From: an uncultured Traorella sp.
Lineage (GTDB): Bacteria > Bacillota_I > Bacilli_A > Erysipelotrichales > Erysipelotrichaceae
NCBI GenBank assembly: GCA_944324265.1
Contig: CALUVS010000015.1
Span: 1-46,349, forward strand
Length of the DNA stretch: 46,349 nucleotides
Direction: 5' to 3'
This document shows, in pieces, positions 24,147-42,188 of this stretch (positions are counted from its first letter, which is position 1; the number at the start of each line of letters is the position of its first letter). Under the pieces are notes generated by a model that saw only the letters and a program-made list of their open reading frames with translations, made no database searches and was not told the origin of the DNA. The position numbers were made by a program, and so were the translations under genes.

Positions 24147-24162
24147 AAACATCAAAAAAACT

Positions 24163-24232
24163 TGACTCCCTACGCTAGTACTAACTAGATCAGGTCATAA
24201 GGGACTCTCTCAGCCGTTCGGCACCCCTGTCT
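24163..24232 (-). promoter_or_regulatory. TPP (thiamin pyrophosphate) riboswitch aptamer
   Basis: The minus strand carries the THI-box hallmarks in order: GGGGTGCC, then GGCTGAGAGAG, then ACCTGATCTAGTTAGTAC, then GCGTAGGGAG. This is the classical TPP aptamer and it precedes thiT. High TPP should reduce thiamine-transporter synthesis. Confidence 0.95.
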
Positions 24233-24242
24233 TGACAAAAGT

Positions 24243-24951: not shown

Positions 24952-26562
<1,611 letters not shown>

Positions 26563-28095
26563 TTACTCCCATTCTACTGTTCCTGGAGGTTTAGAAGTAA
26601 TATCATACACTACGCGGGTAATGCCCATGATTTCATTCGTAATACGGCTGCTGGCCTTTTCTAAGACTTCATATGGCAGTCGAGTCCATTCAGCCGTCAT
26701 AAAGTCATCTGTGGTCACAGCTCTTAAAGCGACTGTGTAGCCATAAGTTCTGGCATCGCCTTTAACTCCGACAGAGCGCAGATCAGTCAATACTGCAAAA
26801 TACTGATTTGTGAAGTTTTCTAAATGAGCGTTGGCAATTTCTTCACGGAAGATCGCATCTGCTTCTCTTAATACATCCAATCTCTCTTTCGTAATTTCAC
26901 CAATGATACGGACAGCTAAGCCAGGTCCTGGGAATGGCTGACGCCAAACAAGTTCATGAGGAATGTTCAGCTGAGTCCCTGCTTCACGCACTTCATCTTT
27001 GAATAAATCCTTTAATGGTTCTACGATTTCATCAAAGGCAATAACATCCGGCAATCCGCCGACATTGTGGTGACTCTTGATAACGGCAGAATCCCCTTTA
27101 CCGCTTTCAATCACATCCGGATAAATCGTTCCCTGTACCAATACATCGATCTTACCCAGTTTTTTTGCTTCATCTTCAAAGACACGGATAAATTCTTCAC
27201 CGATGATCTTGCGTTTCTGTTCAGGATCTGTCACATGAGCTAATTTGCTTAAGAAACGATCTTCCGCATTAACACGAATCAAATTGATTCCAAACTGTTT
27301 GCCGAATGTATTTTCAACAAAATCACCTTCATCCTTGCGCAGCAATCCATGATCCACAAAGACACAAGTCAGATTTGTTCCGATAGCTTTGTGCAGCAAT
27401 ACAGCTGCGACAGAAGAATCGACACCGCCGGATAATGCCAGCAATACTTTCTTGCCAGCCAGCTCTTTTTTGTACTTAGCAATGGAGCTGTCGACAAAGT
27501 TTTCCATTTTCCATTCTGCTGCACATCCGCATACTTTGAAAATAAAATTGTGCAGCATTTGTTTTCCATAAGCTGTGTGAGTCACTTCTGGGTGGAATTG
27601 AACTCCATAAAGCTTTCTTGATTCATCACACATAGCAGCACAAGGACATTTATCTGTGTGAGCAATAATTTCAAAGCCCTTTGGTGCTTCTTTGACATAA
27701 TCCGTGTGGCTCATCCAGCAAATACTTTTTTCCGGTACATCATCAAATAATACATTCTTTTTAACATATACTTCTGTTTTACCGTATTCACTGCTGTTTT
27801 CAGCGGATGTAATTTCACCATCAGCCATATAAGCCATCAATTGTTCCCCATAACAAATCCCTAATACCGGAATTCCAAGATCTAAAACAGCTGGATCATA
27901 GTGCGGAGATTTTTCATCATAAACACTGTTGGGTCCACCTGTAAAGATAATTCCTTTATATCCGATTTCTTGGATTTCCTGAGGTGTAATTTTATTATAA
28001 GGCTTAATTTCTGCATAAACATGTTCTGAACGAACTCTGCGGGCAATCAATTGATTATACTGTCCGCCAAAATCTAATACTAGTATCTTATCCAT
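26563..28095 (-). CDS. guaA: GMP synthase (glutamine-hydrolysing)
   Basis: Amination of XMP to GMP. Domains in order: class I glutamine amidotransferase ([19 protein letters not shown], nucleophile in [16 protein letters not shown]), ATP pyrophosphatase with PP-loop [16 protein letters not shown], and C-terminal dimerisation domain ending PPGTVEWE. 510 aa, full length. It lies 17 bp behind purB with GAGG upstream. Confidence 0.98.
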
Positions 28096-28112
28096 TCACT
28101 CAACCTCTTTTC

Positions 28113-29528
28113 TTATAAATTTATTTCTGCATCGACTGCCTGCACATTTTCAAGCAATGGCGCAATTTTTTCCACAAAGGCTTCTACCTGGTGCACACAG
28201 CGTCCGATATAAGAAGAAGCATCCAATAATTGTTCCATTTCTTCTTCACTTAAGCCAAATTCTTTTTCTGCGGCTAATCGTTTCAATAAGTCACAGTCTT
28301 CTCCGTTTTTCATCTTAGCTGTAGCTTCCATTGAACATTTACGAATGATCTCATGAAGCTGCTGGCGATCGCCGCCTTTCTTAACAGCTTCCATCATCAA
28401 GTTTTCTGTGGCAATAAAAGGCAAATATTCTTTGACAGCTTTTTCAATGATCTTTTCATTGACATGCAGTCCATCAGTAATATTTTGGGCCAAACGCAAA
28501 ATGGCATCCGCACATAAGAATCCTTCCGGCATAGAAATACGGCGATTGGCAGAATCATCCAATGTTCTTTCCATCCATTGCACAGAGGCCGTCATCGGTG
28601 CATTCATCGCATCAGCCATTAAATAGCGAGCCAAAGAACAAATACGTTCACTTCTCATTGGATTACGTTTATAGGCCATTGCAGAGGAACCAATCTGATT
28701 TTTTTCAAATGGTTCTTCAATCTGACGGTCATGCTGAAGCAGACGAATATCATTGGCCATGCGATAACAGCTTTGAGCAATAGAAGACAATGCATTTAAG
28801 ATTCTGCTGTCTACTTTTCTTGGATATGTCTGTCCGGCAACATCAAAGCATTCTTCAAAGCCGAAATCCTGAACAATCATGCGATTCATCTCATCAATCT
28901 TTGCTTCATCGCCTTCAAACAGATCCATAAAGCTTGCTTCTGTTCCGGTTGTTCCGCGGCATCCTAAGAATTTGATATTTTCAATAGCAAAATCAATTTC
29001 CTTTAAATCAGAAACAAAGTCCTGCATCCATAATGTTGCACGTTTCCCTACCGTCACAAGCTGTGCTGGCTGATAATGTGTGTAGCCAAGTGTCGGCAGA
29101 TCTTTGTACTGAAGCGCAAAGGCAGAAAGATTCGCCAAGACTGCGCATACTTCCTGACGCAGATAGCGCAGGGCATCACGATAGAGAATCAGATCTGCAT
29201 TGTCGGTGACATAGCAGCTGGTTGCTCCCAAGTGAATAATACCGGCAGCTTTCGGTGCCGCTTTCCCATAAGCATATACATGAGCCATGACATCATGACG
29301 TACTTCCTTTTCTCTTTGGCTGACACATTCATAATCAATATCCTCAATGTGAGCCTTTAATTCATTGACTTGTTCTTCTGTGATCGGAAGACCTAATTTC
29401 CTTTCTGCATCGGCCAATGAAACCCAAAGCTTACGCCATGTCTGATAACGTGTATCAGCTGAGAAAAGGTGAAGCATATACTTAGAAGCATAGCGGGAAG
29501 ATAAAGGGGATTCATATTTATCTGTCAT
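28113..29528 (-). CDS. purB: Adenylosuccinate lyase
   Basis: Fumarase-superfamily enzyme that releases fumarate from adenylosuccinate and from SAICAR, thus acting after both PurA and PurC of this operon. The signature GSSAMAYKRNPMRSE and LGATSCYVTDNADL are clear. The start is ATG 29528 (6 bases after GGAGG); a TTG two codons earlier abuts the ribosome binding site and is unlikely. At 471 aa it resembles the longer, eukaryote-like PurB branch rather than the roughly 430-aa Bacillus form. Confidence 0.96.
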   Translation of the reverse strand: MTDKYESPLSSRYASKYMLHLFSADTRYQTWRKLWVSLADAERKLGLPITEEQVNELKAHIEDIDYECVSQREKEVRHDVMAHVYAYGKAAPKAAGIIHLGATSCYVTDNADLILYRDALRYLRQEVCAVLANLSAFALQYKDLPTLGYTHYQPAQLVTVGKRATLWMQDFVSDLKEIDFAIENIKFLGCRGTTGTEASFMDLFEGDEAKIDEMNRMIVQDFGFEECFDVAGQTYPRKVDSRILNALSSIAQSCYRMANDIRLLQHDRQIEEPFEKNQIGSSAMAYKRNPMRSERICSLARYLMADAMNAPMTASVQWMERTLDDSANRRISMPEGFLCADAILRLAQNITDGLHVNEKIIEKAVKEYLPFIATENLMMEAVKKGGDRQQLHEIIRKCSMEATAKMKNGEDCDLLKRLAAEKEFGLSEEEMEQLLDASSYIGRCVHQVEAFVEKIAPLLENVQAVDAEINL

Positions 29529-29538
29529 ATTCAACCTC

Positions 29539-30813
29539 CTATTTGCGGATGATGCTGTCGCGATCTGCCCCTACTGAAATATAAGTGATAGGACAGCCGA
29601 TAGCCTTTTCAATATATAGGATATATTGCTGAGCTTCTTTTGGCAAGTCTTCAAAGCGGCGAACTTGTGAAATATCACATTTCCATCCATCAAAATATTC
29701 CACTACCGGTTCTGCGTCTTCCAAAGCCAGCGGGAATGGAAACTCATCAATTTGTTCATGATTCAATAAATAGTGAGTACATACCGGAATTTTATCCATA
29801 TAACTTAATACATCCAACTTTGTTAAAGCAATCGCAGTCGCACCTTGCACCTGCACTCCATAACGTGTCGCAACGATATCAATAGGTCCTACTCTTCGAG
29901 GACGTCCAGTTTTAGCACCATATTCTGCCCCATATTGACGCAGCTGTTCTGCTTCTTCTCCAAACATTTCACAGACAAATGGTCCTTCTCCTACACAAGT
30001 AGAATAAGCTTTCACCACTCCAATCACATCATGAATCTGTGCATTTGGAAGACCAGATCCAATCGGTGCATACGCTGCAATGGTATTGGAAGAAGTTGTA
30101 TATGGATAAATACCGAAGTCAAGATCTCTTAAAGAGCCTAATTGAGCTTCAAATAAAATATTTTTTCCTTCTGCCTGTGCTTTTCTTAAATAAGAGGATG
30201 TATCCGCAATATAAGGCTTAATTTTTTCACAGTAATCATTCAGCCACGCATCCAGCATTTCCATTGTATAAGGTTCTGCTCCATAGATTTTTGTCAATGT
30301 CAGATTTTTCCATTCCATTAAATCTGTCAAATGAGCTCTTAGCTTTTCAGGATAGAATAACTCTCCGGCCAAAATTGTTTTCTTTTGATATTTATCAGAA
30401 TAGAAAGGTGCAATTCCTTGTTTGGTAGAACCATATTTTTTATCTTTCAGACGATTTTCTTCCAAAGCATCACAATCACGATGCCATGGCAGAAGCAATG
30501 AAGCACGATTGCTGATCATCAGATTTTCCGGTGTTAATGATACCCCTTTATTCATGATATCTTCCATTTCAATCCAAAGATTTTCCGGATCTAATGCTAC
30601 ACCGTTGCCTAAAATATTGACAACATTTTTTCTGAATATTCCGGATGGCAGTAAATGTAAAGCAAATTCACCTAATTCATTGATAACTGTGTGACCGGCA
30701 TTTCCTCCGCCTTGATAGCGCACAACCACATCGTAGTTCTCAGTCAAGAGATCTACCATTCTGCCTTTTCCTTCATCACCCCAGTTAATTCCTACAATTG
30801 CACAATTAGCCAT
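29539..30813 (-). CDS. purA: Adenylosuccinate synthetase
   Basis: GTP-dependent joining of aspartate to IMP. The N-terminal catalytic motif reads WGDEGKGRMVD (an Arg replaces the usual Lys at the end of the GDEGKGK loop), followed by GGGNAGHTV with the catalytic His. TTSSNT, GRPRRVGPIDIVATRY and TKLDVL are also present. 424 aa, complete. Gap to purC is 11 bp. Confidence 0.97.
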   Translation of the reverse strand: MANCAIVGINWGDEGKGRMVDLLTENYDVVVRYQGGGNAGHTVINELGEFALHLLPSGIFRKNVVNILGNGVALDPENLWIEMEDIMNKGVSLTPENLMISNRASLLLPWHRDCDALEENRLKDKKYGSTKQGIAPFYSDKYQKKTILAGELFYPEKLRAHLTDLMEWKNLTLTKIYGAEPYTMEMLDAWLNDYCEKIKPYIADTSSYLRKAQAEGKNILFEAQLGSLRDLDFGIYPYTTSSNTIAAYAPIGSGLPNAQIHDVIGVVKAYSTCVGEGPFVCEMFGEEAEQLRQYGAEYGAKTGRPRRVGPIDIVATRYGVQVQGATAIALTKLDVLSYMDKIPVCTHYLLNHEQIDEFPFPLALEDAEPVVEYFDGWKCDISQVRRFEDLPKEAQQYILYIEKAIGCPITYISVGADRDSIIRK

Positions 30814-30824
30814 GTTTTTTCCTC

Positions 30825-31538
30825 CTATATATGTTGTTTTAAACGGTTCATGATCTGTTGGTAGGCTTCTTCCACACCGCCGAGATCCTGACGGAATCTG
30901 TCTTTATCCAACTTTTCTTTGGTCTGGCTGTCCCATAATCGACAAGTATCCGGACTGATCTCATCAGCCAAAATAATCTGATGATTGACATCACGGCCAA
31001 ATTCAAGCTTAAAGTCCACTAATATTATACCGCATTCCTGCCAGAATGCTCTTAATTGTTCATTAACTGCAAAAGCATATTTTTTAATTGTTTCTAATTC
31101 TTCTTTTGTTGCCAGTTTTAAAGCAATGGCATGAGTTTCATTCATCAACGGATCATTTAATGCATCATTTTTATAAGAAATTTCAAAAGTCGGTTCATCA
31201 AAAACAATGCCTTCTTCTACCCCATAGCGTTTGGCAAAAGAACCTGCTGAAATATTACGAATAATTACTTCCAAAGGCACAATAGATACTTTTTTAACTA
31301 AAGTTTCTCGTTCAGATAATTCCTCTACATAATGTGTCGGAATACCGGCTTTTTCAAGTCTTTGCATCAAATAATTGCTCATTTGATTATTGATGATTCC
31401 TTTTTGATCAATACGTCCCTTTTTTTGACCATTGAATGCAGTGGCATCATCCTTATAAGAAACAATAAGAAGATTTGGATCTTCACAAGTAAATACTTTT
31501 TTGGCTTTTCCTTCATAAAGCAGTTCTTTTTTGATCAT
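30825..31538 (-). CDS. purC: SAICAR synthetase (PurC)
   Basis: Phosphoribosylaminoimidazole-succinocarboxamide synthase, which adds aspartate in the eighth purine step. Motifs: LLYEGKAKKVF, VVPLEVIIRNISAGSFAKRYG-type region (here IVPLEVIIRN) and ISPDTCRLWD. 237 aa, typical. It leads the purC-purA-purB-guaA-pyrG operon. Its leader contains a promoter, a terminator and an alternative hairpin, listed separately, so entry into the whole operon appears to be gated by attenuation. Confidence 0.97.
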   Translation of the reverse strand: MIKKELLYEGKAKKVFTCEDPNLLIVSYKDDATAFNGQKKGRIDQKGIINNQMSNYLMQRLEKAGIPTHYVEELSERETLVKKVSIVPLEVIIRNISAGSFAKRYGVEEGIVFDEPTFEISYKNDALNDPLMNETHAIALKLATKEELETIKKYAFAVNEQLRAFWQECGIILVDFKLEFGRDVNHQIILADEISPDTCRLWDSQTKEKLDKDRFRQDLGGVEEAYQQIMNRLKQHI

Positions 31539-31560
31539 GTCATTTCCTCCGTCTTAAAAC

Positions 31561-31608
31561 AAAAAATGCAATGGCTTCTTCATGATGTTTCATCAAAGAC
31601 TCCATTGC
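31561..31608 (-). terminator. Intrinsic terminator in the purC leader
   Basis: A 7-bp GCAAUGG/CCAUUGC stem (31602-31608 with 31568-31574) encloses an inner GAUG/CAUC hairpin and is followed by AUUUUUU on the minus strand. It lies between the purC promoter and the purC ribosome binding site, and also downstream of the asnB stop. It can therefore both end the asnB transcript and attenuate purC. Confidence 0.85.
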
Positions 31609-31612
31609 CTTT
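31595..31612 (-). promoter_or_regulatory. Candidate antiterminator hairpin in the purC leader (ANTAR-type hexaloop)
   Basis: The RNA AAAGGC, loop AAUGGA, GUCUUU folds into a 6-bp stem (one G-U) closing a hexaloop with A at position 1 and G at position 4. It uses the 5' arm of the terminator, so the two folds exclude each other. The same element is found before gdhA. A1/G4 hexaloops are the known recognition feature of ANTAR proteins. Confidence 0.6.
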
Positions 31613-31624
31613 TTTTACGTGGTT

Positions 31625-31653
31625 ATTATGCCCTTTTTTAGTATTTTTGTCAA
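31625..31653 (-). promoter_or_regulatory. Promoter of the purC operon
   Basis: Perfect -35 TTGACA (31648-31653), 17-base spacer, -10 CATAAT (31625-31630) on the minus strand. The start point should fall about five bases before the candidate antiterminator hairpin. Confidence 0.75.
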
Positions 31654-31666
31654 TATCTTTATGATT

Positions 31667-33250
31667 TTATTTCCCAGAGTCTCCATAATTCGATAAGACT
31701 CGGGCAGAAGGGTCATTTACCTGGCAGCCTTGCCATGATTGATTCGGCATCCAGAAGCCTTGAATCATCTGAGATTGATTTGGGTAATATTTTTCAAAGA
31801 TTTCTCGATAAAGCAATGATTCCTTGGTAAAAGGAGCGGCATGATCATATTTTTGACTCTTTTCAATGAATTCTTCCTGACTGTACAGCTGTTCGGCATA
31901 AGCCTTCAGATCATCAACCATGGAATGACCGACAGCGTCGGAGAAAGCAGCTTTTTCTCGCCACAGTATCTCATGAGGAAGCAGTCCGTCATTTTCAAAA
32001 GCATTACGCAGCATATATTTTCCGATGCCATGATGATTCATCAGCAATTCAGGATTCAGCGACATGACATATTTGACAAAGGCCAGATCGCCGAAAGGAA
32101 CACGAGCTTCCAGTGAATTGACGGAGATGCAGCGATCCGCTCTTAAAACATCATACATATGAAGTTCTCGCAGACGTTTTTGGGCTTCTTCGTGAAAAGC
32201 CTGAGCTGAAGGTGCAAAATCTGTATATTTGTAGCCAAATAGTTCATCGGATATTTCTCCGCTCAGCAATACTTTGATGCTGCTATGTTCATGAATGGCT
32301 TTGCATAGCAAATACATGCCGATGCTTGCACGAATGGTTGTGATATCATAAGTTCCTAAGATCTTGATGACCTCATCCAATGCATCAATCACATCTTCTC
32401 GGCTCATATAAAATTCATGATGTTCGCTGCCAATGAATTCGGCTGTCTGTCGAGCATATTTCAAATCAATAGGATCTTTTTCCATGCCGATGGCAAAGGT
32501 TTGAATCGGTTTTTGACTTTTTTTGGCTGCAATGGCACACACCAAGGATGAATCCAATCCGCCGGATAAAAGGAAACCGACTTGGGCATCAGATACAAGA
32601 CGCTTTTCCACACCGGCAATCAGAAGATCATGAATCTTATGACAGGCTGTTTCCTGTTCATCTAAGCAAAGAGTACTTGTTTCAGCAATATCGCAATAAC
32701 AGATAAATTGACCTTTCTGATAATAGTGGCCGCATGGAAAAGGAAAAATCTTGTCACACAGGCCCACAAGATTTTTTGGTTCACTGGCAAATACAATTGC
32801 ACCGTTTTGATCATAGCCATAATACAAGGGACGAATACCGATGGGATCTCTTGCAGCAATAAATTCATGATTTTCAGCATCGTAGATAATGCAGGCAAAT
32901 TCTGCATCCAGCATAGCAAACATAGCTGTTCCGTACTCCTGATACAGCGGAAGCAGTATTTCACAATCACTGCCGCTTTGAAAAGAATATCCTTTTTGTT
33001 TCAGTTCTTCTTTTATTTTATCAAATCCGTATATTTCACCGTTGCAGACAACATAACTGCCATTCAACTCAAAAGGCTGCATGCCCGCATCACTGAGTTC
33101 CATGATAGCTAAGCGATGAAAGCCCAATAGACCTTCTTCTGTTTCAATGATGCGCTTATCATCCGGTCCTCTGGAGATTGTTCTCATAAAGCCTTTCATA
33201 AAAGCATCTTTGTTGATATTTTTTGTGCAGTAACCCATGATTGAACACAT
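31667..33250 (-). CDS. asnB: Asparagine synthetase B (glutamine-hydrolysing)
   Basis: Makes asparagine from aspartate, ATP and glutamine. The N-terminal Ntn amidotransferase domain starts at Cys2 (MCSIMG) and has SRGPDD, GFHRLAIMELSDAG and NGEIYG; the synthetase domain has the PP-loop LLSGGLDSSLV near 230 and SGEISDELFGYKY. 527 aa, close to the E. coli AsnB type. It follows the glnN fragment by 18 bp with GGAGG upstream, so it belongs to the gdhA-glnN-asnB transcript. Confidence 0.96.
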   Translation of the reverse strand: MCSIMGYCTKNINKDAFMKGFMRTISRGPDDKRIIETEEGLLGFHRLAIMELSDAGMQPFELNGSYVVCNGEIYGFDKIKEELKQKGYSFQSGSDCEILLPLYQEYGTAMFAMLDAEFACIIYDAENHEFIAARDPIGIRPLYYGYDQNGAIVFASEPKNLVGLCDKIFPFPCGHYYQKGQFICYCDIAETSTLCLDEQETACHKIHDLLIAGVEKRLVSDAQVGFLLSGGLDSSLVCAIAAKKSQKPIQTFAIGMEKDPIDLKYARQTAEFIGSEHHEFYMSREDVIDALDEVIKILGTYDITTIRASIGMYLLCKAIHEHSSIKVLLSGEISDELFGYKYTDFAPSAQAFHEEAQKRLRELHMYDVLRADRCISVNSLEARVPFGDLAFVKYVMSLNPELLMNHHGIGKYMLRNAFENDGLLPHEILWREKAAFSDAVGHSMVDDLKAYAEQLYSQEEFIEKSQKYDHAAPFTKESLLYREIFEKYYPNQSQMIQGFWMPNQSWQGCQVNDPSARVLSNYGDSGK

Positions 33251-33268
33251 ATTCTTTCCTCCAATAAA

Positions 33269-33892
33269 TTATTTAATGCTGAAAAGCAAATCAGCGTAAG
33301 TCGGGAATGGCCAATAGTTTTTCGCCGTTATCGTTTCAGCCTCATCACAAGCTTTTCTGAGATCTTGCATCATCGGCAAAAGCGTATCACGAATTTGATC
33401 TGCTTGTTCCATGATATTCGGATATTGCTGCAATAAAGCAGCTTCTGATGCTAATGCCTCTTTTTTATCGGCGATTTCATCTGTCAAACAGGAAAGTCTG
33501 CTGACGGTATTGATTTCATAGCGGCATGCGATGTTTTCATTCAATTGCTTCTTTTTCAAAGTATTGCGAGCCAAGTCAGAAGCGTATTTTTCAATCGTCG
33601 GAAGTATCTGTTTCTGTACCATATCAATCATGGTATTGGCTTCAATGATAATATTATGACAATAGTTTTCCAGCATGATCTCACACCTGGATTTCAGTTC
33701 AGCTTCACTGAATACATGATGTGATGTCAGCATATCCACATTCTTTTTATCCAGAATATGCGGCATACAGTCCGCGGTTGTCGGATAATTGTTCAGATGA
33801 CGTACTTCCACGGCTTCTTTGATCCAATGTTCATCATAACCATTGCCGTTAAAGATAATGCGTTTATGCACCGTAATCGTATCTTTGATCAA
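33269..33892 (-). CDS. glnN: C-terminal part of frameshifted type III glutamine synthetase
   Basis: This 207-codon frame starts at a TTG without a ribosome binding site, but it continues the upstream gene in the -1 frame. It holds the type III C-terminal region: [18 protein letters not shown], a long helical part ([20 protein letters not shown]) and the terminal [11 protein letters not shown]. Reading the same frame upstream past 33892 gives a [13 protein letters not shown]-like sequence that fits the family, so the break is one base at 33923-33926 and not a real second gene. Confidence 0.85.
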
Positions 33893-35364
33893 TTTCTGCA
33901 GTGCATCTTGAAAATCTTTGGCTTTTCCAGCTGATCCGCATAAATCTTCAATGATTCCGCAACAGCACTGTTAAGCATAATATTGGCACAGGCAATGCTG
34001 TCAGAGGAACCGACCATTCGGAATTCAAATTTATTGCCGGTAAAGGCAAAAGGAGAAGTACGGTTGCGGTCTGTGGTATCACGGCTGAATTTAGGCAGAA
34101 CGTCCACTCCCAGCTTCATTTTGATTTTTTCTGTACCTTTATAAGGTGTATCATTTTCTATTGCTTCCAAAACGGCATTCAATTCATCGCCCAAGAAGAT
34201 GGAAACAATGGCCGGCGGAGCTTCATTGGCACCTAAACGGTGATCATTACCGGCAGTTGCGACTGAAAGCCGCAATAAATCTGAATAATCATCCACGGCT
34301 TGTATAACGGCACATAGAAACAATAAGAATTGTGCATTTTCATAAGGCGTATCCCCCGGCGACAATAAGTTTTGTCCGCTGTCTGTAGCCAATGACCAGT
34401 TGTTGTGTTTGCCGCTGCCGTTGACACCCGCAAAAGGTTTTTCATGCAATAAACAAACCAATCCGTGACGGCCGGCAATTTTCTGCATCATTTCCATTGT
34501 CAGCTGATTTTGATCGCAGGCCACATTGACACTTGTATAAATAGGAGCCAGTTCATGCTGAGAAGGAGCTACTTCATTATGTTTGGTTTTGGCATAGATG
34601 CCTAATTTCCATAATTCTTCATCCAATTCTTCCATGAAAGCCGCTACTCGCGGCTTAATGACACCGAAATAATGGTCATCCATTTCCTGCCCTTTCGGTG
34701 CTTTCGCACCGAACAATGTTCGTCCGCAGAAAATCAAATCGGGACGCTGTTCATACATTTCTTTGGTAATCAAGAAATATTCTTGTTCCGGACCGACATA
34801 AGGACGCACGCACTGTACATGATCATTGCCGAACAGGCACAGGATGCGCAGTGCCTGCTTATTCAAAGCTTCCATAGAGCGAAGCAGCGGCGTTTTCTTA
34901 TCCAAGGCATTGCCGTCATAAGAACAGAATGCTGTCGGAATGCATAAAGTCTTATCTTTGATAAAGGCATAAGAAGTCGGATCCCATGCGGTATATCCTC
35001 TTGCTTCAAAAGTAGCGCGAAGTCCGCCGTTAGGGAAAGAAGAAGCATCAGGTTCTCCTTTGATAAGTTCTTTGCCGCTGAATTCCATGATCACACCGCC
35101 ATCCAGAGAAGGAGTGATAAAACTTTCATGTTTTTCTGCCGTAATGCCGGTTAGCGGCTGAAACCAATGAGTAAAATGGGTAGCACCTTTGCTGATGGCC
35201 CACTCTTTCATGGCTTGCGCAACTGCATTGGCTACACTGAGATCAATTTGTGTCTGACAGTTAATTGTCTTTTTTAATGATTTGTACGCTTTGGCTGTTA
35301 AACGTGATTTCATTTCTCGTTCATCAAAAACCATGCTTCCGAAATATTCAGGTATTGTTTTCAT
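33889..35364 (-). CDS. glnN: Type III glutamine synthetase GlnN, N-terminal part (gene frameshifted)
   Basis: Large dodecameric GSIII found in Bacteroidetes, cyanobacteria and gut Firmicutes; it joins ammonia to glutamate. The frame holds the GSIII signatures: [45 protein letters not shown], the KHNNWS segment and [15 protein letters not shown]. It ends prematurely after 491 codons with an unrelated tail, while the rest of the protein is in the next frame. The two parts sum to about 698 residues, normal for GSIII. Everything else is conserved, so this is a recent inactivation, a sequence error, or programmed slippage. It lies between gdhA and asnB. Confidence 0.9.
33923..33926 (-). other. Frameshift site in glnN
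   Basis: On the minus strand the frame changes at CTG GAA AAG CCA. One extra A in the AAAA run would give Leu-Glu-Lys-Ala-Lys-Asp-Phe and join the two halves of GlnN. Four A's is short for a sequencing homopolymer error and too short for the classic A AAA AAG slippery heptamer, though an A AAG slip is conceivable. Confidence 0.75.
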
Positions 35365-35389
35365 ATTCTATTTTCTCCTTTAAAGAATT

Positions 35390-35417
35390 AAGACAAAGAT
35401 GTCAGCACCTTTGTCTT
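35390..35417 (-). other. Hairpin between gdhA and glnN
   Basis: A perfect 9-bp stem (AAGACAAAG/CTTTGTCTT) with a 10-base loop lies between the gdhA stop and the glnN ribosome binding site. There is no clean U-run after it, so it could be a leaky terminator or a processing/stability element that sets gdhA above glnN. Confidence 0.5.
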
Positions 35418-35426
35418 TGATTTTGA

Positions 35427-36826
<1,400 letters not shown>

Positions 36827-36835
36827 ATGCATTGC

Positions 36836-36864
36836 ATTTTACACATTATCTTATTACTTGTCAA
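36836..36864 (-). promoter_or_regulatory. Promoter of gdhA-glnN-asnB
   Basis: Perfect -35 TTGACA (36859-36864), 17-base spacer, -10 TAAAAT (36836-36841), minus strand. Transcription should begin about three bases before the candidate antiterminator hairpin. Confidence 0.75.
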
Positions 36865-36939
36865 CCTTTTTCTTTCATCATTTTCATAAAAATATGAAAA
36901 TCTTTCAATTTTCAATAGCAAATTACCTTAAGTTGTGTT

Positions 36940-36945
36940 TATAAT
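36940..36945 (+). promoter_or_regulatory. Probable -10 box of glnA-ANTAR transcript
   Basis: A perfect TATAAT precedes glnA by about 30 bases. The sequence 17 bases further upstream (AGCAAA) is a poor -35, which may indicate an activator or simply a weak promoter. No terminator-like hairpin follows, unlike in the divergent gdhA leader. Confidence 0.45.
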
Positions 36946-36974
36946 AGAGTATTAGTTATGAAAGGATGAGATTT

Positions 36975-38186
36975 GTGAAATATTCAAAAGAAGAAGTAAT
37001 GCAATATGTATCGGAAGAAGATGTGAAATTCATTCGTCTTGCTTTCTGCGATGTGTTCGGCAGACAGAAAAATATCTCCATCATGCCGAATGAATTGGCA
37101 CGTGCTTTTGAATATGGAATTGCTTTTGATGCCTCTGCTGTCAAAGGTTTCGGCGATGAAACGCACTCAGATCTGCTGCTTGTGCCAGATCCGGAAACAT
37201 TATCTTTATTGCCATGGCGTCCTGAACACGGAAAGGTCGTGCGCATGTATGCAGATATATTGACTCCTTGCGGCAATCCTTATGAATGTGATACGCGGCG
37301 ATTGATAAAAAAAGCCATGAAAGAGGCTGAAGAAAAAGGCTATCATTTTGCTTTTGGAGCAGAACAAGAATTTTATTTGTTTCAATTGGATGAACACGGA
37401 AAACCGACCAAGATTCCTTATGATCAGGCCTCCTATATGGATATTGCCCCAGAGGATCGAGGAGAAAATGTTCGCCGTGAAATATGTCTGACATTGGAAC
37501 AAATGGGAATTTTGCCTGAAAGTTCTCATCATGAAGAAGGCCCCGGACAAAACGAAATTGATTTCCGTTATTCCGATGCACTGACTGCCGCCGATAATGC
37601 AGTCACTTTTCAGGCTGTCGTCAAAACAATTGCTCATCGCAACGGATTATTTGCTGATTTCAGCGCCAAACCATTAAAAAAATTTCCTGGCAATGGTTTC
37701 CATATCAATATTTCTCTTCACTCTGAGAAGAAAGAAGATTGTCTGCCTTTTGTTATTGCCGGCATTCTGAACCGCATTGATCAATGTACGCTTTTCTTAA
37801 ATCCGACGGAAAATTCTTATGAGCGCTTTGGTTCTCATAAAGCACCGGCTTATATTTCTTGGTCCAATGAAAACCGTTCACAACTTGTCCGTGTGCCTGC
37901 CGCAATCGGTGAATATCGTCGGGCAGAGCTCCGCAGTGCCGATCCGAGCGCTAATCCTTATCTTGCATTTGCTTTGATCATTTATGCAGTGCTGGAAGCC
38001 ATTGAAAAGAAAATCGAATTGCCGAAACCGGCAGATTTCAATTTATTTAAAGCCGATAAAGAAGTTTTAAAGCAGCTGAAACATCTTCCGGGTACATATC
38101 AGGAAGCTTATAAGGCTGCTGCAGAGAGTGATTTTATCAAAAAATATATTCCATCATCAATCTTAGATATTTATCGCAATTCATGA
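36975..38186 (+). CDS. glnA: Type I glutamine synthetase, short form
   Basis: ATP-dependent glutamine formation. Metal and substrate residues are intact: FGAEQEFYLF (two Glu), HHEEGPGQNEID (two Glu), GNGFHIN (His), NRSQLVRVP and RAELRSADPSANPYL (Glu, Arg). At about 403 aa it is roughly 40 shorter than standard GlnA, lacking the segment after GNGFHIN and much of the C-terminal end, including the usual adenylylation-loop tyrosine motif. I prefer GTG 36975, with AAAGGA 8 bases upstream; ATG 36966 overlaps that site. It is co-transcribed with an ANTAR regulator 18 bp downstream. With a broken glnN nearby, this may be the only working synthetase in this region. Confidence 0.93.
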   Translation: MKYSKEEVMQYVSEEDVKFIRLAFCDVFGRQKNISIMPNELARAFEYGIAFDASAVKGFGDETHSDLLLVPDPETLSLLPWRPEHGKVVRMYADILTPCGNPYECDTRRLIKKAMKEAEEKGYHFAFGAEQEFYLFQLDEHGKPTKIPYDQASYMDIAPEDRGENVRREICLTLEQMGILPESSHHEEGPGQNEIDFRYSDALTAADNAVTFQAVVKTIAHRNGLFADFSAKPLKKFPGNGFHINISLHSEKKEDCLPFVIAGILNRIDQCTLFLNPTENSYERFGSHKAPAYISWSNENRSQLVRVPAAIGEYRRAELRSADPSANPYLAFALIIYAVLEAIEKKIELPKPADFNLFKADKEVLKQLKHLPGTYQEAYKAAAESDFIKKYIPSSILDIYRNS

Positions 38187-38204
38187 TCAAAGGAGGGGAG
38201 CAGA

Positions 38205-38789
38205 ATGAGTTTGAAAGAACGGATCAGCAGTGTTCTTGTTGTATCAGCTGCCGGTAACTTCATTCAGACCTTATATGAATATTTGCCGGAAGAAAAATAT
38301 TCCCCTATTTATACTGTATCAAATATCAGTGCTGCCAAAAGGGCAGTATGCGAACAATCCTTTGATTTTGTGATCATCAATTCTCCTTTGCCCGATGATG
38401 CAGGCATTCGCTTTGCTATTGATGCCAGTACGATACGCCATGCCGTTGTATTGCTGCTGGTTCGTTCGGAATTATATGAAGCTGTTTTTGATAAAGTGAT
38501 GGAACAGGGTATTTTTGTTTTGTCAAAGCCAACTTCTCGTTCATTTCTTATGCATGCTTTGGATTGGATGGAAGTGGTCAAAGAAAGAGAACGACTTCAT
38601 GAGAAAAAAACACATTCATTGGAAGATAAGATGGCAGAAATCAAATTAGTCAATCGGGCAAAAATAATATTGATGGAACAATCCTTGATGGATGAAGCGC
38701 AGGCACATCGCTGCATTGAAAAACAAGCGATGGATCGCTGTGTCAGCAAGCGCGTCATCGCAGAAGAAATCATTAAGAAACATTCCTAA
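38205..38789 (+). CDS. ANTAR-domain antiterminator with a degenerate receiver domain
   Basis: RNA-binding antitermination regulator, 194 aa. Residues about 8-120 resemble a response-regulator receiver (VLVVSAAGN, DFVIINSPLPDDAG, VLSKPTSRS), but the acidic pocket is missing and the phosphoacceptor position is Asn59, so aspartyl phosphorylation looks impossible. A charged coiled-coil (about 120-140) leads to the three-helix ANTAR domain (about 140-192: KLVNRAKIILMEQ, then EAQAHRCIEKQAMDR and VIAEEIIKK). ANTAR proteins bind hexaloop hairpins and prevent terminator formation. It sits behind glnA with a strong GGAGGGG site. Likely targets are the hairpins before gdhA and purC (inference). Confidence 0.87.
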   Translation: MSLKERISSVLVVSAAGNFIQTLYEYLPEEKYSPIYTVSNISAAKRAVCEQSFDFVIINSPLPDDAGIRFAIDASTIRHAVVLLLVRSELYEAVFDKVMEQGIFVLSKPTSRSFLMHALDWMEVVKERERLHEKKTHSLEDKMAEIKLVNRAKIILMEQSLMDEAQAHRCIEKQAMDRCVSKRVIAEEIIKKHS

Positions 38790-40097: not shown

Positions 40098-42188
40098 TTA
40101 ACCATTGCTTTTAACTACTTTTTCTGCAATTGACTTAGGTACTTCAGCGTAGTGGTCCATCTTCATAGAGTAGTTACCACGTCCCTGAGTAAATGAACGT
40201 AAGTCAGTTACATAACCGAACATTTCAGAAAGTGGGATATATGCACGAACCATTGTAGCATTTCCTCTTTCTTCCTGATCATTGATCTGCCCGCGGCGAG
40301 ATGAGATATCTCCCATGACTGAACCTACATATTCAGTTGGTGCAGTTACATCAACTAACATGATTGGTTCAAGCAGAACAGGTTTACATTTCTTAGCAGC
40401 TTCTCTTAATGCCATAGAAGCAGCGATCTTATAAGCCATTTCACTTGAATCGACATCGTGGTAAGAACCATCAAACAATGTAGCTTTGATATCGATAACT
40501 GGATAACCGGCAATTAAACCGTTAGCCAATGCAGCTTCAGTACCTTCAGCGATAGCCTTGATGTATTCTTTTGGTACAGATCCACCGACAGTAGCATCTG
40601 TAAATTCGAATCCAGCACCTTCTTCATTTGGTTCAAATCTGATCCAAACGTGACCGTACTGACCACGACCACCTGATTGCTTAATGTATTTACCTTCACA
40701 GTCAGCAGCCTGACGGATTGTTTCACGGTAAGCAATCTGAGGAGCACCTGTGTTAGCTTCTACTTTAAATTCACGTCTTAAACGGTCAACGATGATGTCA
40801 AGGTGAAGTTCCCCAACACCGGCAATAATTGTCTGACCAGATTCTGGATCAGTATAAGTCTTGAATGTAGGGTCTTCTTCAGCAAGTTTCTGAAGACCTA
40901 AAGTCATCTTATCCTGGTCACCTTTAGATTTAGGTTCTACTGAAATCTGAATAACTGGTTCAGGGAATACCATTGATTCAAGGATGATGTGAGCATCTTC
41001 AGCACACAATGTGTCCCCAGTAGTTGTATCTTTCAGACCAACACCGGCAGCGATGTCACCTGCATATACCTGATCAATTTCTTTACGAGAATTCGCATGC
41101 ATCTGTACGATACGTCCGAATCTTTCACGTTTTCCTTTTGTAGCGTTCAGCACATAGCTTCCTGCTTTGCATGTACCTGAGTAAACACGGAAGTAAGTTA
41201 ACTTACCGATGAATGGGTCAGTCATGATCTTGAATGCTAATGCTGAGAATGGTTCGTTGTCATCTGCGTGACGAGCAACTTCTGTACCATCTTCCAATGT
41301 ACCTACGATAGCAGGGATATCAACTGGAGAAGGCAAGTATTCAACAACACCGTCAAGCATTAACTGAACACCTTTGTTTTTATAAGCAGAACCGCAGAAT
41401 ACTGGGAAGAATTCACCAGTCAATACGGCTTTACGGATAGCAGCTTTGATTTGAGGAATTGTAGGTTCTTCACCTTCAAGTACCATCATCATCAAGTCAT
41501 CATCGAAATCAGCTACTGCTTCAATCAATTCCTGACGTTTTGCTTCCATTTTATCTTTCAGGTTTTCTGGCACTGGAATTTCAACGATATTCACGCCGTA
41601 ATCACCTTCGAAGTCATATGCTTTTCTTTCCAACAAGTCAATGATACCGCTGAAATCAGATTCAGCACCGATTGGCAGCTGTACAGCAGCCATCTTAGCA
41701 TCCAAACGAGTTTTGATTGTATTGCAGCTCATGTCAAAGTCTGCCCCAGTTGCATCCATCTTGTTGACGAATACAATACGAGGTACACCATAAGCAGAAG
41801 CCTGACGCCATACTGTTTCAGTCTGAGGTTCAACCCCAGCCTTAGCATCCAATACAGTTACGGCACCGTCAAGTACACGTAATGAACGTTCTACTTCAAC
41901 AGTAAAGTCTACGTGACCTGGAGTATCGATAATGTTGATACGGTGAGTCGCAAACTGTTTCTTGCTTCCTGCCCAGTGAGCAGTAGTTGCTGCAGAAGTA
42001 ATCGTAATACCACGTTCCTGTTCCTGAGCCATCCAGTCCATTGTAGAAGCACCATCGTGTGTTTCCCCAATTTTGTGGTTTACCCCAGTGTAGTACAGGA
42101 TACGTTCAGTTGTAGTTGTCTTACCGGCATCGATGTGAGCCATGATCCCGATATTACGAGTGTGTTCCAATGAATATTCACGTGCCAT
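40098..42188 (-). CDS. fusA: Elongation factor G
   Basis: Translocation GTPase, 696 aa. G1 [10 protein letters not shown]3 [10 protein letters not shown]4 NKMDATG, plus the domain IV segment [11 protein letters not shown] whose tip enters the decoding site. Between rpsG and tuf as in other str operons. Confidence 0.99.

Follow-up and report, generated by a model that had tools for sequence, protein, structure and literature searches.

Locus and gene content

The window analysed here, that is, the whole 46,349-nucleotide stretch of DNA from an uncultured Traorella sp., carries on its plus strand a gene for a putative receiver-ANTAR antiterminator preceded by a gene for a glutamine synthetase-like protein (GlnA), with further glutamine-related genes on the minus strand:

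24952..31538, minus strand: purC-purA-purB-guaA-pyrG cluster, from open reading frames and their translations
31667..33250, minus strand: asnB, glutamine-hydrolysing asparagine synthase
33269..35364, minus strand: type III glutamine synthetase (GSIII) gene, with a frameshift near 33890 that leaves 491 + 207 aa
35427..36776, minus strand: gdhA, NADP-type glutamate dehydrogenase
36966..38186, plus strand: GlnA (GSI-like) partner, with metal and substrate residues retained, Lys292 in place of the flap Glu and Asp64 in place of the Arg62 equivalent
38205..38789, plus strand: putative receiver-ANTAR antiterminator, 194 aa, with Asn59 and RNA-contact residues Lys153, Glu164, His168 and Met176

These genes form an unbroken glutamine-related block (24952-38789), in which guaA and pyrG are glutamine amidotransferases, and which is flanked by ribosomal-protein genes further out on one side and by tuf-fusA on the other. 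Within the cluster, purC was assigned by family match, and purA, purB, guaA and pyrG were named from their translations alone. The frameshift in GSIII is either a sequencing error or real decay, and an intact second GSIII copy lies elsewhere (G000:C48:3569). As originally predicted, the operon partner of the ANTAR gene is a short GlnA: glnA stops 18 nt upstream of the ANTAR open reading frame on the same strand, and its product (406 aa as called, ~403 aa from the likely start, probably the GTG at 36975) is short because it lacks loops present in GSI. Scanning the window against Rfam returned only a TPP riboswitch (24150-24238, minus strand), upstream of a transporter-type membrane protein.

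Conservation and origin of the glnA-ANTAR pair

Conservation of the pair as a unit across related genomes had been set beforehand as a test of the original prediction, and the pair passed it. Our family sample comprised 195 genomes, ~39 of them with a full-length ANTAR homologue, and yielded 40 loci from relatives that, with the window and L002-L005, made up 45 loci. GlnA precedes ANTAR in 42 of these 45; the other three comprise one locus at a contig edge (L059) and two ANTARs that stand alone (L074, L078). Among Clostridia, 92 of 291 genomes possessed the ANTAR protein, and GlnA lies beside ANTAR in 28 of the 30 best loci (L173 being a repeat of L005). GSIII, often with asnB, is the divergent neighbour of the pair in about half of the loci. 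The solo ANTARs of L074 and L078 are flanked by pyrG and purA and have a hexaloop hairpin close upstream, and those of the Clostridia loci L192 and L198 lie between gltB and carA with no adjoining GlnA, so in some lineages GlnA is dispensable.

On the tree, the window pair clusters with Clostridia (L002, 62% identity), apart from its congeners L063 and L066, which belong to a broken-GlnA lineage elsewhere on the tree, and this suggests that the pair was replaced by horizontal transfer. Base composition did not differ between the gene cluster and its flanks, so transfer is argued from the tree only, and a plasmid search gave no close match.

Repeated loss of catalytic residues in the GlnA partners

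Grading the GlnA partners at 11 catalytic positions revealed three states, namely intact proteins, proteins with the flap Glu replaced (mostly by Lys, the window protein included), and broken proteins that have lost metal ligands or the substrate Arg. The window GlnA possesses all metal and most substrate residues, with the flap Glu (E327 in Salmonella and E304 in Bacillus numbering) as the sole loss among the scored positions; it scores 336.9 bits against an NCBIfam GlnA cut-off of 429, and judging by its residues it may still be an enzyme. The original prediction had drawn on Bacillus, where glutamine synthetase serves as a nitrogen sensor for GlnR and TnrA by a route that relies on the feedback-inhibited enzyme and in which Arg62 and flap Glu304 are important. 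That precedent does not transfer as stated, since the window GlnA has Asp64 and Lys292 at these positions and, because both residues are lost, may have no feedback-inhibited state of the Bacillus type.

Broken partners include L068/L069 (E220V, H269R, E357M/T) and L062/L065 (E129K, H269G/A), with further examples at L081/L083, L063/L066 and L186-L188. On a quick ANTAR tree whose root was not inferred, the broken state requires at least 8 changes. For pairs of broken GlnAs that allowed an estimate of dS, dN/dS was about 0.07-0.16, much as for the accompanying ANTARs; the broken proteins are thus under purifying selection, which argues for a retained role outside catalysis.

It could be argued that GlnA serves only as an assimilatory enzyme, under common regulation with an ANTAR that senses alone, for example through a small molecule in its pseudo-receiver, such that adjacency reflects no more than a shared pathway. 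Such an arrangement would fit the glnA-less ANTAR genes inside other glutamine gene clusters and the largely retained catalytic residues of the window GlnA, but it sits poorly with repeated changes between intact and broken GlnAs that stay next to ANTAR under purifying selection, and with the presence of GSIII, a further glutamine synthetase, in 40 of 41 of these genomes, none of which had another GSI-type gene. We therefore regard a purely assimilatory GlnA as unlikely, if still the most serious competitor. That catalytic residues were lost repeatedly while purifying selection persisted provides strong indirect support for GlnA acting as a regulator, beyond an enzyme alone.

Leader elements with a single hexaloop

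Two leader elements were found in the window, each upstream of genes of the block:

36807..36864, minus strand: leader element before gdhA, with promoter TTGACA-17-TAAAAT and hairpin AAGGC-AAAGGC-GUCUU near +1
36779..36822, minus strand: intrinsic terminator in the gdhA leader, which takes in the hexaloop hairpin's loop and 3' arm
31593..31653, minus strand: second leader element, before purC, with hairpin AAAGGC-AAUGGA-GUCUUU and then a terminator (from folding)

The gdhA leader and the GSIII leaders of relatives have a common promoter-hairpin-terminator layout, which in its general form reads TTGACA-17-TATAAT, 4-16 nt, and a hairpin (loop AA[AGT]G[GA]N) that also supplies an intrinsic terminator with its 5' arm (for gdhA, -20.7 kcal/mol for the terminator versus -2.9 for the hexaloop hairpin). 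Across leaders, 86.5% of cells were paired and 57 two-sided changes were counted, as compared to 18.7 after shuffling and no more than 22 in slid controls, with the inner three closing pairs, but not the two outer ones, having been a selection criterion. A covariance model trained mostly at ANTAR loci (R1) found two convincing sites in the whole 2.2-Mb genome, both in the window (gdhA, E 1.2e-6; purC, E 5.8e-5), and a second model built without the window and L002 sequences (R2) recovered both (gdhA, E 4e-7; purC, E 9e-6, in 59 kb). Weaker R1 matches in the same genome (C23 at E 0.01, C2, C18, and one at 41362 within fusA) were set aside as chance, having no terminator or lying at unrelated genes.

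Known ANTAR targets are hexaloops with A1 and G4 that overlap a terminator (PMC3369931, PMC8934654), and the window leaders are likewise A1/G4 hexaloop hairpins overlapping intrinsic terminators. They do not carry the two hexaloops (P1 + P2) of such targets: upstream there is no room for a second, and downstream one occurs in 6 of 37 leaders versus 3.9 expected, which is no enrichment. This points to a one-hexaloop design; by its sequence the leader represents a variant of the dual-hexaloop ANTAR target in which one hexaloop stands by itself. Work on the EutV-RNA structure published in 2022 redefined the minimal motif as a single hexaloop and left open the extent of single-site use (PMC8934654). 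Other arrangements were also seen, including a hairpin in the gdhA-GSIII gap (35365-35426, minus strand; GACAAAGGTGCTGACATCTTTGTC) that resembles a decayed leader copy, three hexaloop-terminator units in series before GSIII in L002 (541-797, minus strand), and seemingly tandem leaders in L128 and L139.

Leader targets and co-occurrence with ANTAR

Evaluating the genes behind the leaders revealed nitrogen or glutamine genes downstream of 35 of 40 distinct matches (E <= 4e-4), many of them on other contigs. Family matches precede GSIII, amtB, a gltB-type amidotransferase gene, gdhA, carA, purC, purF, purA, guaA, pyrG, an amino-acid binding protein gene and glnA-ANTAR itself, and Clostridia matches also precede glmS and asnA (named by reading). 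The remaining five matches lie in L137 (two), L143, L149 (membrane protein) and L144 (binding protein). Those at L137 (2403-2685, minus strand) and L143 (2449-2506, minus strand) are strong and have no nitrogen gene directly downstream; it is possible that they are small RNAs titrating ANTAR.

Leaders (E <= 1e-3) were present in 31 of 190 family genomes, and ANTAR is encoded in 30 of these; the one left over, G110, is a 78% complete genome with a congener possessing both. Only ~1 in 150 ANTAR-less family genomes had a leader match, and the association gave a Fisher p of ~1e-25, with counts approximate, as the two samples are five genomes apart. GSIII was present in 17 of 27 ANTAR-less relatives tested, so the absence of leaders there is not gene absence. 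In a chosen Clostridia sample, leaders occurred in 17 of 22 genomes with ANTAR versus 3 of 18 without; the leaders of these three lie before purF or amtB, and the genomes may hold a more distant ANTAR.

These patterns bear on whether the element might instead be the DNA operator of a DNA-binding repressor, with no ANTAR RNA target at all. Its arms do form an inverted repeat at the transcription start, as an operator would, but they vary by compensation, G-U pairs included, around a loop that stays AA.G, the element overlaps a terminator, and its presence tracks ANTAR, all of which leave an operator very improbable. An antitermination regulon under ANTAR, by comparison, appears well supported by these genomic patterns.

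A receiver domain without phosphorylation chemistry

The window protein is the sole ANTAR protein of its genome, with the ANTAR domain at residues 139-190 (Pfam PF03861, E 1.9e-15) and a receiver domain that scores marginally below the Pfam cut-off (29.8 versus 30.2 bits). In EutV the RNA contacts are Lys149, Glu160, an aromatic residue at 164 and Met172 (PMC8934654); matched by hand via the AM motif, these correspond to Lys153, Glu164, His168 and Met176, which are invariant in 19 ANTAR sequences. The receiver had been predicted to lack its acidic pocket and to carry Asn59 at the phosphoacceptor position, and alignment to Rv1626 (1s8n) bore this out: Asn59 stands opposite the phosphoacceptor Asp of that protein, Ser-Ala (VLVVSAA) has taken the place of the acidic pair expected where beta-1 ends, and the beta-5 Lys (K108) is kept. 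The window ANTAR thus has neither the acidic pocket nor the phosphoacceptor Asp of a phosphorylated response regulator. Across the 19 homologues the phosphoacceptor position is unconserved (N/Q/D/L/K/G/M), so the family as a whole, beyond the window protein, seems to have left phosphorylation control.

The accompanying observation that no kinase is encoded nearby also held: no histidine kinase was found among the genes within ~13 kb upstream and 6 kb downstream (by reading their translations). Classical two-component control by an orphan histidine kinase would account for the still recognisable receiver fold and beta-5 Lys, but with Asn59, no acidic pocket, a site unconserved in the family and no kinase gene adjoining the pair, we give it hardly any credence.

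Proposed mechanism

Reading the gene pair, residue losses, leader anatomy and protein-leader co-occurrence directly from the genomes, we infer RNA binding, antitermination and GlnA sensing. We consider it fairly probable that glnA-ANTAR is a nitrogen/glutamine antitermination switch with the leader hairpin as its target and GlnA as its probable input. RNA polymerase leaving the strong promoter would at once transcribe the single AA[AGT]G hexaloop hairpin; ANTAR bound to this hairpin would block the overlapping terminator, such that gdhA-GSIII-asnB and purC-purA-purB-guaA-pyrG are read, and with ANTAR unbound transcription would terminate within ~60 nt. The input is presumably not phosphorylation and most likely the GlnA partner, whose glutamine synthetase pocket would bind a nitrogen metabolite (glutamine, glutamate or a nucleotide) and so hold or release ANTAR, as in AmiC-AmiR and NasS-NasT. 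Most probably, a shortage of glutamine would leave ANTAR free and active.

By analogy with such partner proteins, GlnA is likely the ligand-responsive sensor of the regulon. Glutamine is a possible ligand and a natural one given the regulon, with glutamate, AMP or ATP possible too. The fuller proposal, that a glutamine synthetase has turned metabolite sensor (and pseudo-enzyme in several lineages) to gate an ANTAR and a nitrogen/glutamine/nucleotide regulon via one 5'-end hexaloop, we hold to be slightly better than evenly balanced. If true, global nitrogen control in many gut Firmicutes would be explained by transcription antitermination, pseudo-glutamine-synthetases would be added as sensors, and natural single-hexaloop ANTAR targets, the extent of which was left open (PMC8934654), would be at hand.

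Comparison with known systems

The literature we searched on ANTAR with glutamine synthetase or hexaloop, which took in only a minority of subscription journals, described no such system, nor the pseudo-enzyme series, single-hexaloop leaders or regulon. ANTAR adjoining glutamine synthetase genes is already known in Clostridium (nitR): for NitR of solventogenic Clostridium, and for Clo1313_2030-2036 of C. thermocellum, an ANTAR protein encoded close to the genes for glutamine synthetase and GOGAT is proposed as an ammonia-responsive antiterminator (PMC4676874). The window pair resembles these in having ANTAR near glutamine synthetase genes; no pseudo-enzyme partner, single-hexaloop leader or regulon of such extent was found for them in the literature covered.

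GlnR and TnrA of Bacillus are MerR-type DNA-binding regulators, whereas the regulator here is an RNA-binding receiver-ANTAR protein, and its glutamine synthetase is without Arg62 and the flap Glu. In AmiC-AmiR and NasS-NasT, ANTAR is controlled by a ligand-binding partner with no kinase (PMC3369936, PMC3795266), and the partner-protein control proposed here is alike, although the partners there are small-ligand-binding proteins of another family and the partner here belongs to the glutamine synthetase family. EutV shares the A1/G4 hexaloop, the terminator overlap and the RNA-contact residues (PMC3369931, PMC8934654); it requires two hexaloops and phosphorylation, whereas the system described here possesses one hexaloop near +1 and no phosphoacceptor.
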